A DNA stretch of 64,000 bases from Mesoaciditoga sp. (GTDB lineage: Bacteria > Thermotogota > Thermotogae > Mesoaciditogales > Mesoaciditogaceae). The DNA is taken from NCBI GenBank assembly GCA_015491995.1, contig WGFY01000068.1:1-64000 (forward strand). The letters are read 5' to 3'. The notes beneath the pieces were generated by a model. The model was not told where the DNA came from and ran no database searches. It saw nothing but the letters and a program-made list of their open reading frames with translations. Positions within the stretch are counted from its first letter, which is position 1. Every line of letters begins with the position of its first letter. The translations under genes were made by a program, and so were the position numbers. Below are positions 27,573 through 37,097 of this stretch, one piece after another.

Positions 27573-27920
27573 ATGGAAGAAGGGTTTAAAGTGAAAATAG
27601 AAACGGTCGTAAAAGAGCTTGTATCCTCCGAAAAGGATTCTAAGGGTATCATTCAAAATACGAAAGAAAAAAGTGAAAAGATGATAAAAGAGGCTGAAAA
27701 GAAAGGAAAAGAGCTTCTTGAAGCAAAAACGAACGAAGCAAACGTAACGGCAAGAAGGATACTGGAAGATTCAAAAGAAAAAATGCGAACATACGACGAA
27801 AAGATGTTGGATGACGCTCGAAAAAAGTTCAAGAACATCAGAGAGACGTATTTGAATATGAAAAACGAGATAATGGAGAATTTTATATCTGATTTTCTTA
27901 AAGGGAAAAAGAATGGGTAG
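27573..27920 (+). CDS. V-type ATPase peripheral stalk subunit (G/H-like coiled coil)
   Basis: Charged coiled coil, first gene of the ATPase operon; GTG at 27591 after GAAGAAGGG may be the real start. Confidence 0.75.
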   Translation: MEEGFKVKIETVVKELVSSEKDSKGIIQNTKEKSEKMIKEAEKKGKELLEAKTNEANVTARRILEDSKEKMRTYDEKMLDDARKKFKNIRETYLNMKNEIMENFISDFLKGKKNG

Positions 27921-28998
27921 CATACTGGCATATGCTGGCGTAAGAGCAAAATTAGCCGGTATGGCAAACCGCTTTTTAAAAAAAAGCGATTACGAAATAC
28001 TCATGAGTAAAAAAAGTGTGCCAGAAATAACAACATATCTCCAGCAAACCAAGATGTACTCAAAGGCTTTGAAAAATATCAATCCTGAAGAATTACATCG
28101 AAGATATTTGGAGATGTTGCTGAAAGCGGATTTGGTGGAGGATGTGAGGAGATTTTTTACGTTCTTCGTAACTTTAGACAAGGCATTCGCATCTTACGTG
28201 ATAAGAATGTACGAAATTGAGAATTTGAAGTTGGCTCTAAGGAATACGCTTGTGGAAAAGGAATCAAAGAAAAATCTGGAGGAACTGAAAAGCAAATTTT
28301 ATGATTTGGGCAAGAGAGCACTTGTAGACCCCATGAAGGTGGCTTCAGCCGTTGGTAAAGATGAAATACTGAATTCGTTGGAAAGCACTCCTTACTATGA
28401 AGTGGTGAGAAACGTGTTCGTTAGTTATAAGGGAGAAACGCCAAATTTGATTGGAAGCGTGGAAAACGGATTGGATAGATGGTTGTTTTTTGGCTTTCTA
28501 AATGCGGCAAAGGATTTAGGATACGATGACTATATGATAGTTAAAGAAATGATAGGAGAGCGAATCGATCTCATCAACATAGAATGGATAATAAGGGCAA
28601 AAAGTTTTTATTCTTTAAGGGCCGAAGAACTTTACAATTCTCTTATTCCTATGGAATTCAGAATGAACGTGTCATTGCTACACAAGCTGTGCGATGCAAA
28701 GCACTTTGAAGAGGATTTAGAACTTCTTATCGGAAGTTCATACAAAAATCTTTTTAGCGATATTTCTGAAAGTTCAGAAAACGTAACGCCGGAGATGGTA
28801 ACACTCGCCATGAGAAAATACCTTTACGGGAAGACCAAAAGGGCCTTATCTACGTTAGGCGGCTTCTCAATAGCTTCGTTTTTCCATTATCTTTTCCTTA
28901 AGGAGTACGAGATAATGGATATAACGACTATAATTGAAGGTGTTCGATACAATATAGAAGCGAAAGAGATAGAGAAATACTTGACAGCATCATTTTGA
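27913..28998 (+). CDS. V-type ATPase subunit C
   Basis: AYAGVRAKLAGMANRFLKKSDYEILMS; position in operon. Confidence 0.85.
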   Translation: MGSILAYAGVRAKLAGMANRFLKKSDYEILMSKKSVPEITTYLQQTKMYSKALKNINPEELHRRYLEMLLKADLVEDVRRFFTFFVTLDKAFASYVIRMYEIENLKLALRNTLVEKESKKNLEELKSKFYDLGKRALVDPMKVASAVGKDEILNSLESTPYYEVVRNVFVSYKGETPNLIGSVENGLDRWLFFGFLNAAKDLGYDDYMIVKEMIGERIDLINIEWIIRAKSFYSLRAEELYNSLIPMEFRMNVSLLHKLCDAKHFEEDLELLIGSSYKNLFSDISESSENVTPEMVTLAMRKYLYGKTKRALSTLGGFSIASFFHYLFLKEYEIMDITTIIEGVRYNIEAKEIEKYLTASF

Positions 28999-29007
28999 GG
29001 TGATGAT

Positions 29008-30948
29008 ATGGCAGTAGTCAAAATGAAAAACATTACTCTTGCTTTTCCAGAAGAAGACTCCGAGAATGTAAGCCTGGATCTGCTTTCATCTGAATCGTTT
29101 GAGCCAATGGAAATAAGAGGAATTCTTGTTGAGAATGTGGAAAAAGAACTTTTGCAACTTGAAAATAAAAACCCGTATCAAGAAGTGTACACAGAGATGG
29201 TGCAGTTCTTGAAGATGACCGAATACACTCCTAATTTCGATAGCTCCAAGATAAATGAGAAATTCGATCTTCAAAAAACTCTAAAAAGATTTTCGCTTTT
29301 GAACAAAAGCATAAAGAGATTTTTCGATAAAAAAAATGAGCTGGGCAAAAAACTTCAAGAGTATGAAAAAGTGCTCTTCTACGTCAGAATATTGGCTGGG
29401 TTGGACGTTGAAATGGAAAATCTATCAGAAATAAGAAGAATAAAAATGTTTTTTGGAAGGGTTCCGGTAAGACATTACGAGCCTTTGGTGGAATCTTCCC
29501 TTAACGTTCCAATTTTGGTGTTAGAGACGAACAGAGATAAGGACAGCTCTTGGATATTTGTTTTCACGACGCCAGACTTCACAGATGAAACACATAAAAT
29601 ACTCCAATCGGCCTACTTTGAAGAAGACAAACTGCCGGTTGATTATCAGGGAACACCAAAAGAAATTCAAAGAAGAATCGAATCACTCATCAAAATAACA
29701 AAAATTTCCATGGGAGAAAACGACAGCGTTGTAAAAAAAGTTCTCTATGCGAGTAAGGAATTCGTGGATGATCTTTATTCAACAATCGTTTCGCATAAGA
29801 GAGCTTACGATTTATCGACGTTCAACAACACCACACCACAAAAAAACGTTCATTTTATAAGTGGATGGATGCCGATGAGTGAGGTGAACAACCTTGGCAA
29901 GAATTTGGGAAGAGACGTGTTGTTGATAGAGAATTCTTCCGAAGAAATTGTCCAAAAAAATTCCTCCATAAAAATTCCAGTAAAGTTGAAAAACAGGGGA
30001 AAGATCGTTCAATCTTTTGAATTCATAACGCAAATGTTTGGTACTCCCCGTTATGGTGAAATAGATCCAACACCATTTATCACAGCGTTCTTCATATTCA
30101 TGTACGGTTTTATGTTAGGTGATGTAGGACATGGATTGGTGCTTTTCCTATTCGGATATTTACTCTATAGAAAAGGATCTGGCAAATTTGGAATTGTGAT
30201 GATGAGCTCGGCACTTTCATCGGTTTTTTTTGGTTTTATGTATGGATCGATCTTCGGGTTTGAAAATTGGATACCAGATTTATGGTTAAGACCGATCATT
30301 CAGATAAACCAACTGTTAGAAATTTCCGTTTTCTATGGGATAGGAATGTTGATATTTGGAATGGTGTTGAACGTGATAAATGGTTTCAAACAAAAAGATA
30401 TGGAAAAAGCTTTGTTCAGCGCGGAAGGTATAGTAGGTTTGATCTTTTACATTCCGTCCATAATTCTTACGACATTTTACTTTATAAGTAAACCAATACC
30501 ATTTAGCCCAATGTTTTGGGAAGTACTGTTGGGTACTTCGTTGGTAATCATGTTTTTCAAGAAACCGTTGGCACAAATTATCACGCATCAGCGAGTTTCT
30601 TTACCAAACGGTTTCTGGGTTGAGAGTGGATTTGGAATGTTTGAAACTCTAATTTCTTACCTTAGTAACGCCATATCTTTCGTCAGGTTAGCGGCTTTTG
30701 CGTTAACTCACGAGGCTCTATTCGTGGCATTTTGGGTTTTAACGTTGATGGTACTTCCAGCTCCTGGTGGAGATGCTTGGGCATTTATCGTTTTCATGTT
30801 AGGTCAATTCATGCTCGTTGGCTTAGAAGGATTGGTGGTTTTCATTCAAGATCTAAGGCTTATATACTATGAATTTTTTACCAAATTTTTTGAAGCAACT
30901 GGTAGAGATTTCCATCCATTTCTTTTCGTGGAAGGTGATGTTAAATGA
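29008..30948 (+). CDS. V-type ATPase membrane subunit I (a)
   Basis: TPFITAFFIFMYGFMLGDVGHGLVLF, LSYLSNAISFVRLAAFALTHEAL. Confidence 0.92.
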   Translation: MAVVKMKNITLAFPEEDSENVSLDLLSSESFEPMEIRGILVENVEKELLQLENKNPYQEVYTEMVQFLKMTEYTPNFDSSKINEKFDLQKTLKRFSLLNKSIKRFFDKKNELGKKLQEYEKVLFYVRILAGLDVEMENLSEIRRIKMFFGRVPVRHYEPLVESSLNVPILVLETNRDKDSSWIFVFTTPDFTDETHKILQSAYFEEDKLPVDYQGTPKEIQRRIESLIKITKISMGENDSVVKKVLYASKEFVDDLYSTIVSHKRAYDLSTFNNTTPQKNVHFISGWMPMSEVNNLGKNLGRDVLLIENSSEEIVQKNSSIKIPVKLKNRGKIVQSFEFITQMFGTPRYGEIDPTPFITAFFIFMYGFMLGDVGHGLVLFLFGYLLYRKGSGKFGIVMMSSALSSVFFGFMYGSIFGFENWIPDLWLRPIIQINQLLEISVFYGIGMLIFGMVLNVINGFKQKDMEKALFSAEGIVGLIFYIPSIILTTFYFISKPIPFSPMFWEVLLGTSLVIMFFKKPLAQIITHQRVSLPNGFWVESGFGMFETLISYLSNAISFVRLAAFALTHEALFVAFWVLTLMVLPAPGGDAWAFIVFMLGQFMLVGLEGLVVFIQDLRLIYYEFFTKFFEATGRDFHPFLFVEGDVK

Positions 30949-31412
30949 CACTTTTTCAATTCCTTGTTTTCTTGGTTTTCTTGATGATGTTGATATCTTT
31001 TTTGATTTTCAGGGGAAATATGCTGAAAACACAAAAGAAGAGAAAAAAGGAGGCTTCGGATGTGAAATTGATCAAATACACAGCCCTTGGGGGAAACGTC
31101 ATCATCGGCTTAGCCCTTCTTGCATTGTTTCTCACTCCAGATAAAGCAACGGCAGCGGCCATGAATTCATCAATATCGTCAACGATGAAATTACTTAATC
31201 CGGCGGGACTTGGATTTATAGGCGCGGGACTCTCCACCGGTTTGGCTTCTATCGGTGCTGGATGGGGAACGGGTATAGTTGGTGGTTCTTCGATAAAAGT
31301 CGGTCGCTTAAACAGTGGAATGCTTGGAAAATCCATGATATTCGCAGGACTCGCAAACGGGGTTGCAACTTATGGTCTTATAATCTCTATTCTCATTCTC
31401 AGCAGAATTTAA
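30945..31412 (+). CDS. V-type ATPase proteolipid K1 (extra N-terminal 2-TM module; Glu replaced by Asn)
   Basis: GLGFIGAGLSTGLASIGAGWGTGIVGG ... MIFAGLANGVATYGLIISILIL; AAC codon at 31356-31358. Confidence 0.88.
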   Translation: MTLFQFLVFLVFLMMLISFLIFRGNMLKTQKKRKKEASDVKLIKYTALGGNVIIGLALLALFLTPDKATAAAMNSSISSTMKLLNPAGLGFIGAGLSTGLASIGAGWGTGIVGGSSIKVGRLNSGMLGKSMIFAGLANGVATYGLIISILILSRI

Positions 31413-31429
31413 GGAAGTTGGTGAACAAT

Positions 31430-31894
31430 ATGCTTTTAGTGTTTGTAGGAATATTTAGTACTCTTGTAATAACGATATTGATGTTGGAAACAGTTTTGAA
31501 CAAAAAACTATTTGTTGAAAGTCGTTACACTAAAAAATTGAAAAAGCTGATAATTTCTAATTTAGGAGTTTTGGTTTCTCTCATGTTATTTGGACTGGTT
31601 ATGATTTCTCCCGACAAGGCGGTGGCGACACCCATCACAAATAGTGGCGAAGGAATAACCAAACTTGCAACCACCCTTATAAATCCTGGACTTGGATATA
31701 TCGGTTCAGGGCTTTCCACGGGATTGGCATCGCTCGGGGCAGGAGTTGGAACCGGAATAGTTGGCGCCAAGTCCATAAATATCTTAAGATTTAATCCAAA
31801 ACTCCTTGGAAAATCCATGATATTCGCAGGGCTCGCAAACGGAGTCGCAACTTATGGTCTTATAATATCCATACTTATAATGAGCAGAGTTTGA
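31430..31894 (+). CDS. V-type ATPase proteolipid K2 (extra N-terminal 2-TM module; Glu replaced by Asn)
   Basis: GLGYIGSGLSTGLASLGAGVGTGIVGA ... MIFAGLANGVATYGLIISILIM; AAC codon at 31838-31840. The ORF-track start at 31262 lies inside K1 and is not credible. Confidence 0.88.
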   Translation: MLLVFVGIFSTLVITILMLETVLNKKLFVESRYTKKLKKLIISNLGVLVSLMLFGLVMISPDKAVATPITNSGEGITKLATTLINPGLGYIGSGLSTGLASLGAGVGTGIVGAKSINILRFNPKLLGKSMIFAGLANGVATYGLIISILIMSRV

Positions 31895-31910
31895 AGGGAG
31901 GAGTTTTAAA

Positions 31911-32369
31911 ATGTTTGTTTCATTCGTGTTGATGTCTTTAACCGTGTTCGCCACCATAATTCTTGGTGTGATATTCAGTAACAAAAGGGTTATGGAGCAT
32001 GTGAGCTCTCCTGTAAAAGTGGGTAAGAGAACTTTGGGAATTAACATGGTCTCCTTGTTTAGTTTCATGACATTTGCCATTCTCTCGTTGATCCCAAGTG
32101 GGCATGCTTTTGCGGCTACGGCAAATTCCGCAGCAACTTCTGTCGCGGTTACTATCAACCCCGGCTTGGGATACATAGGCGCGGGCCTTTCCACTGGGTT
32201 AGCATCAATGGGAGCAGGAATAGGTGTTGGCATTGCCGGAGCAGCAGGTATAGGAGCCATAAGTGAACAACCTGATATGCTTGGAAGAACGCTTATTTAC
32301 GTTGGATTGGCGGAGGGAGTTGCCATTTACGGTTTGATCATATCGATAATGATATTCGGAAGGATTTGA
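31911..32369 (+). CDS. V-type ATPase proteolipid K3 (canonical ion-binding Glu retained)
   Basis: GLGYIGAGLSTGLASMGAGIGVGIAGAAGIGAISEQPDMLGRTLIYVGLAEGVAIYGLIISIMIF; GAG codon at 32313-32315. Confidence 0.92.
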   Translation: MFVSFVLMSLTVFATIILGVIFSNKRVMEHVSSPVKVGKRTLGINMVSLFSFMTFAILSLIPSGHAFAATANSAATSVAVTINPGLGYIGAGLSTGLASMGAGIGVGIAGAAGIGAISEQPDMLGRTLIYVGLAEGVAIYGLIISIMIFGRI

Positions 32370-32686
32370 CTAAAATGAGATTCTTCCTCATCAGTGATAA
32401 CATAGACACTCAAATAGGTTTAAGACTTGTTGGAGTAAAGGGTGTTGTCGTTCATGAAAAGGAAGAAACGCTCACAGCATTAGAAAAAGCAAAAAAAATG
32501 AAAGACGTGGGAATAATACTTATGACTGAAAAAATTGCGACTCTCGTCCCAGAAATTGTCTACAAATCAAGAACTTCAAAATCGCTTCCTCTTCTAACGA
32601 TTATTCCAGATAGGCATGGAACGACGCGTCCTAAGGACTTTATAACCCGTTATGTTAAGGAAGCAATTGGAGTGAGGATAAAGTGA
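32366..32686 (+). CDS. V-type ATPase subunit F
   Basis: DNIDTQIGLRLVGVKGVVVHEKEE; size and position. Confidence 0.85.
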   Translation: MTKMRFFLISDNIDTQIGLRLVGVKGVVVHEKEETLTALEKAKKMKDVGIILMTEKIATLVPEIVYKSRTSKSLPLLTIIPDRHGTTRPKDFITRYVKEAIGVRIK

Positions 32687-33297
32687 ATATCGAAAAGAAA
32701 CTCAATTCTCTGAAAGAATATGTTAAATCTAAAGCATTGAATGAAGCCGATGAAATAATCAAAACGGCTAAAATTCAAGTAAAAAAAGTGGATAAAGAGT
32801 ACAAAGAAAAAGCTGAAGAAACTTATTCGAGAATAATAGAAGAAGCCAAGAAGAAAGTGTCAACCATGGAAAGGCGTGAAATGGCTCAATCGCGTGCAAA
32901 AGCATCGAAGATGTTTTTGGATGCCAAAAACGAGATTTTGAAATCGTCACTTGAAGAATTGAAAGGTAGAATTTACGCTTTAAGTACTAATAAAAAATAC
33001 GAAGAACTTCTTGAAAAACTTACGTTGGAAGCGATAAAGGAATTAGGTAAAAAAGAGGTCATCGTATCCGTTAGAAACGAAGACGATGCAAAGATGAAAA
33101 GCATCATAAAGAAATTGGAAAAAGATTTGAAAGCAAAAATCACTCTTTCCACTGAACATGTAAAGATCATGGGAGGCGTGATAGTGACAATCATAGATAA
33201 TCATGTTATGGTGGAAAACACACTTGAAAACAAATTCGAAGAAGTGAAAGAAAGCTTCATCTCACTTTTGTTTTCAAGATTAAATGTCGATGGGTGA
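32683..33297 (+). CDS. V-type ATPase subunit E
   Basis: N-terminal coiled coil and C-terminal GGVIVTIIDNHVMVENTLENKFEE. Confidence 0.87.
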   Translation: MNIEKKLNSLKEYVKSKALNEADEIIKTAKIQVKKVDKEYKEKAEETYSRIIEEAKKKVSTMERREMAQSRAKASKMFLDAKNEILKSSLEELKGRIYALSTNKKYEELLEKLTLEAIKELGKKEVIVSVRNEDDAKMKSIIKKLEKDLKAKITLSTEHVKIMGGVIVTIIDNHVMVENTLENKFEEVKESFISLLFSRLNVDG

Positions 33298-35093
33298 TGC
33301 AAATGAATAAAACAATTGGAAAAGTTTACATGATAAACGGTCCTGTCGTTAAGGCGAAGGAAATGACAGGGGTCATGATGCACGAAGTTGTAAAGGTTGG
33401 AAATTTGAAGCTTACAGGAGAGGTGATCTCTCTTGAAAATGATGATGTTACCATCGAGGTCTATGAGGAAACGTCAGGATTGAAACCAGGTGAACCGGTA
33501 GAAGGGACAGGGGAACTTTTATCAGTGATATTAGGTCCTGGAATCATAAAGAGTGTTTACGATGGGATTCAGCGTCCTTTAAATGTACTCAGAAATAAAT
33601 CCGGTGACTTTCTTGAAAGGGGAGTCAACGCTGATGCGTTGGACATGAGTAAAGAGTGGGAGGTTGAAGTTCTGGTAAAAGAGGGCGATCGTGTTGTTCC
33701 CGGGCAAGTGGTGGCAAAAGTTAAAGAAACAGCGTCCGTTGAGCATAGAATCATGATTCCGCCGGAGATATCCGGAAAAGCAGCAGATGTCCAGAAGTCT
33801 GGAAAATATAATTTGGACGCAAATTTGTTGACGGTGGAATTAGATAATGGCGGTAAAAGAGGTGTGAAACTTTATCAGAAATGGCCCGTTAGAGTTCCAA
33901 GACCGGTGAAGAAAAGATTGGCACCTTCCGAACCTCTGATAACTGGGCAACGCGTCATAGACACTTTTTTCCCGATAAGTAAAGGTGGAACGGCGGCAAT
34001 TCCTGGTGGATTTGGAACAGGAAAAACCATAACGCAGCATCAGCTTGCAAAGTGGTCAGATGCCGATATAGTTGTGTACATAGGATGTGGAGAGCGTGGA
34101 AATGAAATGACCGAAGTGCTGGAGGAATTTCCTCAGCTTAGAGATCCACGTAACGGGCAACCTTTGATGGAAAGAACGGTACTAATAGCAAACACATCAA
34201 ACATGCCTGTTTCAGCGCGCGAAGCTTCGATATATACTGGCGTAACGATAGCTGAATATTTCAGGGATATGGGGTATCATGTTGCCCTTATGGCTGATTC
34301 AACTTCAAGATGGGCGGAAGCACTCAGAGAGATATCAGGGCGTTTGGAAGAAATGCCGGCTGAGGAGGGATTTCCACCGTATTTGTCTTCAAGATTGGCT
34401 GAATTTTATGAACGTGCTGGAAAAGCAACTTTGTTAGGGAGCGTGGATAAAGTTGGATCCATTTCCATCATAGGAGCTGTGTCTCCTCCAGGAGGAGATT
34501 TCTCAGAACCGGTTACAACACATACGAAAAGATTCATAAGATGTTTTTGGGCATTAGATAAATCGCTTGCAAACGCGAGACACTATCCGTCTATAAGCTG
34601 GTTGAATAGCTATAGTGAGTACACAATGGAGCTAAAAAATTGGTTTGATGAGAATGTCAACCCCGATTTTGCAAATCTTGTAAAAAAAGCGATGAACATC
34701 TTCAGTGAAGATGACAATTTGCAGCAGATAATAAAACTGGTCGGGGAGGATGTCCTTCCAGATGATCAAAAGCTTGTCGTTAGGGTAGCGAATATATTGA
34801 AAATTGGTTATCTACAGCAAAGCGCATTCAGCGATGTGGATGCATTTTGTGAACTTGCCAAACAAAACGAGATGTTGAAGCTAATTTTGATGTATTACGA
34901 TCGTGCGATGGTGCTTGTTTCAAAAGGTGTTGCGATTTCGGAAGTGCTAAATGAGACCATGATAAATACCTTGATGAGGATGAAAGAAAAAATTCCAAAT
35001 GACAAATTAAATGAATTTGAGGAAATTGAAAAAAGCCTTGAATCTTTATTCGACTCGTTGAACAAAAAGTACAATCAGGCAAAGGAGGCGTAA
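33294..35093 (+). CDS. V-type ATPase catalytic subunit A
   Basis: [53 protein letters not shown]-type motif. Confidence 0.97.
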
Positions 35094-35097
35094 TGAT

Positions 35098-36486
35098 ATG
35101 CCCCTTAAAGAATATGTAGGCTTATCACAGATAAACGGGCCGCTCGTTTTTGTGGAAAATGTTGAGAATATTGGATACAACGAAGTGGTTGAAATAATTT
35201 TCAGGGACAAAAAAAGGTTTGGTCAAGTTGTGCAAGTCAGTAAGAATTTTGCCGTGATTCAAGTTTTTGAGGGAACTGAAGGTCTTAATCTAAACGAGAC
35301 AAGGGTAAAATTTTTAGGGAAAACATTGCAGATAAAGGTGTCCGAGGAAGTTTTGGGAAGGACATTCAATGGTATAGGAAGGCCCATAGATGGTGGAGCA
35401 GAAATAGTCAATGGAGTTTATAAAGATGTGAACGGTTCTCCAATCAATCCAGCATCGCGTATGTATCCAAAGAATTTTATACAAACTGGCATATCCGCTA
35501 TTGACGGCCTCATGACACTTATACGTGGACAAAAGTTACCCATCTTCTCAGGCAATGGCCTTCCACATAACAGATTGGCCGTTCAAATAACGAAACAGGC
35601 TAAATTAAAGGGAGAAGAAAGTGGCGATTTTGCAATAGTATTTGCCGCGATGGGGATAAAACATGACGATGCACAATATATCTTGTCAAGCTTTGAAGAG
35701 TCGGGTGCTGTTAAAAATGTGGTCACATTCTTAAACCTTGCAGATGATCCAACAATTGAAAGAATTTCAACTCCTCGTGTCGCCCTCACCGCTGCTGAGT
35801 ATTTGGCATTTGAAAAAGATATGCATGTTTTGGTCATATTAACCGATATGACCAATTATTGTGAAGCCTTACGTGAGCTATCCACCGCTAGGGGAGAAGT
35901 TCCATCTAGAAAAGGCTACCCAGGGTACCTTTATAGCGACTTGGCAGCTATTTACGAAAGGGCTGGCATGATAAATGGCAAAAAGGGGTCTGTTACCCAA
36001 ATTCCCATTTTATCGATGCCAAATGATGATATAACACACCCAATACCGGATCTTACCGGTTATATTACAGAGGGACAAATAGTTTTAAGCAGAGAACTTC
36101 AAAGGAAAGGTGTCCACCCACCGATAGGCATATTGCCCTCTTTATCAAGGTTGATGAAAGATGGGATAGGAAAAGGATTTACACGTGATGATCATCCACA
36201 CGTCTCGAGTCAGCTTTTCGCAGCCTACAGTCGTGTTCAAGAAACAAGGGCATTGGCTTCCATAATAGGTGAAGAAGAACTGACAAACGCGGATAAAAAA
36301 TACCTTAAGTTTGGTGAAGCTTTTGAAAAGGAATTTTTATCTCAAGGTGAAGAAGAGGATAGAATGATCGAAGAAACACTTGATATAGGTTGGCGTGTTT
36401 TAGGATATTTGCCAACATCAGAGCTTACACGTGTAAATGAGGAAGAAATCAAAAAGCGTTATAAAGCAAGGGAAGATGTGAAATGA
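35098..36486 (+). CDS. V-type ATPase subunit B
   Basis: [50 protein letters not shown]. Confidence 0.97.
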
Positions 36487-37097
36487 GTGTCAATGTTTCT
36501 CCTACAAAAAGCAAGCTAATAGAAACGAAAAGATCACTTGTTTTGGCAAGAGAAGGGCACACGTTACTCGATAAAAAGAGAAACGTTCTCATAAGGGAGA
36601 TGATGCGCCTTATAGATTCCGCGAGAGAAATTCAAGAGAATATGGAAATAGTTTTCACCAATGCCTATGAAAGTTTTCAAAAAGCGAATTTGAGTATAGG
36701 CATAGAGCATGTTGAAGAAGTTGGAATTGCAATAGAAGAATTCTCAGATCTGGCGATCAGATTAAAAAGCATAATGGGTGTTGAAATCCCAGAAATAGAT
36801 GATATTTCTGAAGAAATAAGACTCTCTTACGGATTCGTTAAGACGGATGCAAACTTAGATGGGGCACATAAATCCTTTAAAAAGGCACTTTCTTTAATTG
36901 CAAATCTGGCCGAAATAGAAACAACGGTTTATAGGTTGGCAAGAGAAATAAAGAAGACTCAAAGAAGAGTTAACGCGTTGGAAAACGTTCTAATCCCTCA
37001 ATACGAAGAGACCGTAAAATTCATCGAATCTTACATAGAGGAAACGGAAAGAGACGATTTCTTTCGTATGAAAAGGTTAAAACAGAAAAAGGCATAA
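36483..37097 (+). CDS. V-type ATPase subunit D
   Basis: [52 protein letters not shown]. Confidence 0.95.

Follow-up and report, generated by a model that had tools for sequence, protein, structure and literature searches.

The three V/A-ATPase c subunit precursors of a Mesoaciditoga operon carry a two-helix module that is probably a cleavable leader

The window, a 64,000-nucleotide stretch of Mesoaciditoga sp. DNA (contig WGFY01000068.1), holds a V/A-ATPase operon with three c subunit (K) genes, K1, K2 and K3, whose translated sequences each comprise a TM segment, a basic loop, a second TM segment, an AxA motif, a flexible linker and an ordinary c hairpin. We consider it probable (about 0.8) that the N-terminal two-helix module is a cleavable leader of a V/A-type c subunit precursor. 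The module is a variant of the leaders of already known leader-bearing c subunits and is apparently undescribed: the literature searched (most subscription journals were outside its scope) contained no description of a two-helix c subunit leader, and we found no N-terminal sequence, mass or structure for any member that has one. The operon runs in the order H-like, C, I, K1, K2, K3, F, E, A, B, D, with the following features:

27573-27920, plus strand: H-like stalk subunit (NCBIfam AhaH, 8.8e-7, under that model's cut-off)
27913-28998, plus strand: subunit C (NCBIfam AhaC, 1.2e-27)
29008-30948, plus strand: subunit I/a (NCBIfam subunit I, 1.1e-56)
30945-31412, plus strand: K1, V/A-ATPase K (c) gene, 155 aa, from sequence
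30945..31154, plus strand: putative K1 leader, two TM segments and basic loop, ending TPDKATA/AA (slash, predicted cut; from sequence and the alignment column of the -1 residue)
31155..31409, plus strand: K1 predicted mature part, 85 aa, linker and c hairpin (PF00137 at residues 92-151)
31430-31894, plus strand: K2, V/A-ATPase K (c) gene, 154 aa, from sequence
31430..31627, plus strand: putative K2 leader, two TM segments and basic loop, ending SPDKAVA/TP (sequence, alignment)
31628..31891, plus strand: K2 predicted mature part, 88 aa, linker and c hairpin (PF00137 at residues 91-150)
31911-32369, plus strand: K3, V/A-ATPase K (c) gene, 152 aa, from sequence
31911..32114, plus strand: putative K3 leader, two TM segments and basic loop, ending PSGHAFA/AT (sequence, alignment, AF2 helices 2-23 and 34-60)
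32115..32366, plus strand: K3 predicted mature part, 84 aa, linker and c hairpin (PF00137 at residues 89-148, AF2 helices 85-117 and 123-151)
32366-32686, plus strand: subunit F (NCBIfam/Pfam)
32683-33297, plus strand: subunit E (NCBIfam/Pfam)
33294-35093, plus strand: subunit A, read from its translation
35098-36486, plus strand: subunit B, read from its translation
36483-37097, plus strand: subunit D, read from its translation

The K1 ATG overlaps the stop codon of subunit I as ATGA. A mechanical list of open reading frames starts K2 at 31262, which is spurious; the gene spans 31430-31894. The initial annotation had the three proteolipids occupy 30945-32250, which is right at the start but too short at the end, since K3 runs to 32369. 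An F-type c subunit is also encoded in the same genome (G000:C28:4120-4311), and F- and V-type ATPases are both present in the thermoacidophile Athalassotoga saccharophila (PMC7163026).

That each proteolipid carries an additional N-terminal two-TM module, as first noted, is borne out by the window, where the sequences quoted for it are found, and by Pfam: PF00137 scores 45.0, 53.1 and 68.4 bits on K1, K2 and K3 (cut-off 24) over the second half of each protein only, which leaves the N-terminal half of each without a Pfam assignment, and Pfam has no model for the two-helix module. The top NCBIfam match for all three is NF004888 (PRK06251, V-type ATP synthase subunit K, 102 positions), which on K3 reaches 70.9 bits against a cut-off of 101 and covers residues 54-149; model and protein thus have the second leader helix and the hairpin in common, whereas the first leader helix is absent from the model. 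Mean pairwise identity across 80 nonredundant aligned rows is 28% in the leader, 17% in the linker and 73% in the hairpin, and in 108 relatives both TM segments persist together with the basic loop and the AxA column, more than chance would give. The description of the leaders as divergent in sequence and constant in topology therefore stands, except that a few leader positions are strongly conserved. An AF2 model of K3 from 74 sequences has helices at 2-23, 25-30, 34-60, 85-117 and 123-151, with pLDDT below 50 in the linker (68-79) and a pTM of 0.48; the model is one of two separate helical hairpins with a disordered linker between them, their relative placement not being firm.

The precursors resemble Enterococcus hirae NtpK and other double-hairpin K subunits in their length of ~155 residues, in having four TM segments before any processing and in offering one potential ion carboxylate. 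NtpK, however, consists of two homologous c hairpins and has no leader, whereas in K1-K3 the first helix pair has no kinship with c hairpins and carries a cleavage-site motif at its end. Total length and the four TM segments are what would favor reading the module as the decayed first hairpin of a duplicated V-type subunit, which we find barely credible. When leader and hairpin profiles were compared by hhalign, the probability of a match was 0.3%, the level of ten shuffled controls (0.1-0.6%), whereas genuine NtpK proteins encoded in the same genomes gave 82-98% for both halves; this agrees with the earlier impression that the modules do not look like c-type hairpins. Nor does the leader resemble the first hairpin of genuine NtpK proteins, and several of the same genomes (e.g., that of E. 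callanderi) encode a separate true double-hairpin subunit.

The end of the module has the marks of a processing site. The (-3,-1) rule of signal peptidase I holds at one alignment column pair in all 108 rows (96 at the next-best pair), although these rows, from Thermotogota, Bacillota, Spirochaetota and Atribacterota, are related and partly picked by similarity to K3 and so are not independent trials. The -1 residue (A68, K3 numbering) is Ala in 102 rows, Ser in 4 and Gly in 2, the -3 residue is A, V, I, S, L or T in nearly all, and a Pro stands six residues ahead of the -1 residue in 94/108. Small residues at -3/-1 after a hydrophobic helix, the pattern of a signal peptidase I substrate, thus occur in 108/108 rows, and one signal peptidase I is encoded in the window's genome. 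The leader differs from a classical signal peptide, a single helix with its N-terminus inside, in having two helices and an N-terminus predicted to lie outside. Conservation of AxA could in part be structural or ancestral, alanine being common around the site. The basic loop has on average 5.7 Lys plus Arg, and zero in no row of the 108 relatives, while a mean of 0.09 lie ahead of TM1 and both N-terminus and linker are almost without them; mean net charge is +4.5 for the loop, 0 for the N-terminus and -1.0 for AxA plus linker. Under the positive-inside rule, this charge pattern gives an outside N-terminus, an inside loop and an outside AxA, followed by the known c orientation. AxA is accordingly predicted to face the outer side of the membrane, where signal peptidase I acts.

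The closest precedent is the c subunit of Thermus thermophilus (subunit K/L; 5gar, 6qum), a single Glu-bearing hairpin behind a leader ending AFA/A. A profile built from 74 relatives aligns with Thermus c (5gar_O, 99 residues) over residues 4-99, leader included, so that the second leader helix and AxA fall on the Thermus leader and AFAA, the ending given in the initial annotation, on AxA. The Thermus residues E63, T54 and R49 named in the cryo-EM paper (PMC7367684) fit the 99-residue chain only when 19 residues are removed, an offset that puts residue 1 right after AFA, and Thermus ring structures include 73-74-residue chains without the leader. By analogy with this relative, the numbering lends indirect support to cleavage of the K leaders, although the Thermus leader is simpler: one helix starting inside, in contrast to the two helices of K1-K3, which start outside and have the basic loop between them.

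The same comparisons bear on whether the extra helices are cut off or retained, a choice that the initial annotation had posed. Retention, in which they would stay as part of a four-helix protomer and line the ring on its inner or outer side, like the extra N-terminal helix that the eukaryotic ring has in its single copy of c'', appears quite unlikely to us. The leader residues conserved across phyla, the purifying selection on the leader and a length equal to that of four-helix NtpK all speak for it; on the other hand, the strict (-3,-1) rule would have no evident purpose absent cleavage, the module has no homology to the c hairpin, and a ring of ~12 hairpins, judging from the Thermus c12 ring, offers little room for 24 further helices. 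The hole of the Thermus c12 ring is filled by lipid (PMC7367684). Foldseek searches with the K3 model also failed to give a four-helix match: Thermus single c hairpins came top, NtpK was matched over one hairpin only (75 columns) and yeast c at 12.4 Å rmsd over 155 columns, with none of these structural matches below E = 0.001, as expected for short helical hairpins. The (-3,-1) pattern and the Thermus alignment and numbering strongly favor a cleaved leader; fold and profile comparisons lend a retained one no support.

We propose that insertion leaves the N-terminus of the two-helix module outside and the basic loop facing the cytoplasm, so that the second leader helix would end on the outer side. 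There, signal peptidase I would cut after AxA and release a subunit of 84-88 residues, in which an ordinary c hairpin of outside-in-outside topology follows a few flexible N-terminal residues; the freed subunits would go on to build the rotor ring. In this scheme, the second leader helix with AxA is the counterpart of the simple Thermus c leader, and the first helix is the addition by which the leader starts outside. The sequence analysis establishes the architecture with its conservation, the topology signals, the cleavage motif, and both translation of the leader and selection on it, whereas cleavage itself, the identity of the protease and roles past insertion are inferred.

Both translation signals and codon evolution indicate that the leader is made. 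The possibility, raised at the outset, that downstream starts yield a hairpin-only product finds no support: K3 has no in-frame ATG, GTG or TTG between TM2 and the hairpin, and the in-frame candidates in K1 (ATG at residues 73 and 81) and K2 (GTG at residue 65) all lack a Shine-Dalgarno-like core. Such starts are missing from 65/108 rows, and four rows have one with a Shine-Dalgarno-like core. By a lenient motif set, these cores are present at nearly all chosen starts of the relatives. Values of dN/dS between related genomes, rough since dS is often near or above 1, are ~0.04-0.24 in the leader where computable, ~0-0.11 in the hairpin and higher in the linker. Purifying selection on leader codons, together with the cores at the starts, indicates that the leader is translated.

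The best-kept leader positions over the 108 rows are T15, G19, K39, N45, P62 and A68 (K3 numbering), and the first four of these keep their residue across phyla, in at least ~85% of rows. The conservation of these four exceeds what a throw-away signal needs and counts against a simple cleaved leader; it suggests a specific fit, perhaps to an insertase or an assembly step, and the leader may do more than targeting. One form this might take is a leader that is cleaved yet persists as a free two-helix peptide, aiding ring assembly or plugging the ring hole. The conserved residues, unusual for a mere signal, and the fact that the leader accompanies every copy agree with such a peptide, but Thermus manages with a simple leader and one relative, L024, seems to have lost the first helix; we hold it to be very unlikely. 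At the locus L024 (genome G001), the same c hairpin is preceded by a single lysine-rich helix where the two-helix module would be, which, as read from the sequence of an incomplete genome, appears to be a natural replacement of the module by a conventional signal peptide and counts in favor of the leader reading.

The three genes differ at the ion site. K3 keeps the site Glu (Glu135, codon 32313-32315), whereas K1 and K2 have Asn instead (Asn138, codon 31356-31358, and Asn137, codon 31838-31840), so that only K3 has a carboxylate in the outer helix; K3 is the canonical c member, and K1 and K2 are carboxylate-less paralogues. The motif is LANGVATYG in K1 and K2 and L[AG]EG in K3 and every other aligned relative. 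K3 lacks both the classic Gln in helix 1 and a Ser/Thr after the Glu, and the absence of these residues points to H+ as its probable ion. Within the family, K1-K2-K3 sets occur in three genomes (the window's own, G000, together with G014 and G015) and K1-K3 sets in two (G012, G013), and G008-G011 have one K. Asn is present in 8/8 K1/K2 copies from five genomes of the family, and these copies share V106T and I139T (K3 numbering) and have all lost the SE motif of the cytoplasmic loop. In the tree they group as one clade (support 100/99) with long branches, possibly helped by gene conversion, and their hairpins are under strong purifying selection. Gene conversion is also suggested by the DNA at the start of the last helix (31308-31409 in K1 vs. 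31790-31891 in K2), where third-position identity is 71% in G000 and 82% in G015, compared with 35-53% elsewhere in the hairpin. Subunit I, read from its sequence, retains both Arg of the ion path. In a further genome, G016 (L007, minus strand, between subunit I and K3), K1/K2 are reduced to one broken hybrid, the only open part of which is a K1 leader of 72 aa ending DKAMAQL, beside an intact K3; the K1/K2 paralogues can therefore be lost.

The likeliest role for K1 and K2 is that of blank protomers in a mixed ring, although a regulatory or assembly role is possible. Eukaryotic V-ATPases also have several proteolipid paralogues per ring (c, c', c''), of which c'' has an extra N-terminal helix. 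To our knowledge, all of the eukaryotic paralogues retain the carboxylate, in contrast to K1 and K2. A more elaborate proposal joins the two themes: the leader would be a built-in assembly factor, a chaperone hairpin that directs closure of the ring and afterwards is either clipped off or stays on as a free peptide, and a ring that mixes the Glu-bearing K3 protomer with the two Asn-bearing ones, K1 and K2, would reach an NtpK-like low ion-to-ATP ratio with single hairpins. We consider this combination unlikely. If it were true, the low ratio that NtpK obtains by hairpin fusion would be obtained here by blank single hairpins, and it would suit proton export by a thermoacidophile.

The layout had implicitly been taken as peculiar to this operon, but the architecture is widespread and recurs in Thermotogota, Clostridia, Halanaerobium, Spirochaetota and Atribacterota. 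In 103 genomes of Thermotogota, almost every V-type K that occurs shows this two-helix-leader layout. Scanning one genome per species gave at least 521 confirmed relatives; the best 80 of these, chosen by similarity to K3 and all inspected, share the layout and come from Clostridia, Tissierellia, Halanaerobium, Spirochaetota and Atribacteria. In a less biased sample, for which 200 genomes were taken evenly across the phylum to which E. callanderi belongs, 15 have a strong match (≥85 bits), eight of which cover the profile from position 1 or 2 to the end and one from position 8, and most other matches cover only a c hairpin. Several genomes, among them G103 (E. callanderi), G104 and G106-G110, encode a double-hairpin K in addition to the leader-type K with its single hairpin, and genomes with both probably have two kinds of V/A-ATPase. 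Litty and Mueller reportedly described in 2020 a Na+ A1AO ATP synthase of Eubacterium limosum/callanderi KIST612 "with a V-type c subunit." The idea that this subunit was a misread two-helix-leader K was dropped; the true double-hairpin subunit of E. callanderi (G103:C5:133849-134274, with Q and ET motifs) is the likelier match.

Judged by gene length alone, hundreds of bacterial V/A-ATPase c genes could pass as four-helix "V-type" subunits. If the first helix pair is a leader, their rings would be built of single hairpins and the ion-to-ATP ratio deduced from the genes would be wrong. This raises the question of why a leader with an outside start and conserved residues persists in several phyla. 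In addition, the Glu-less paralogues in one family of thermoacidophiles provide a natural test of whether blank sites are tolerated by a rotor.
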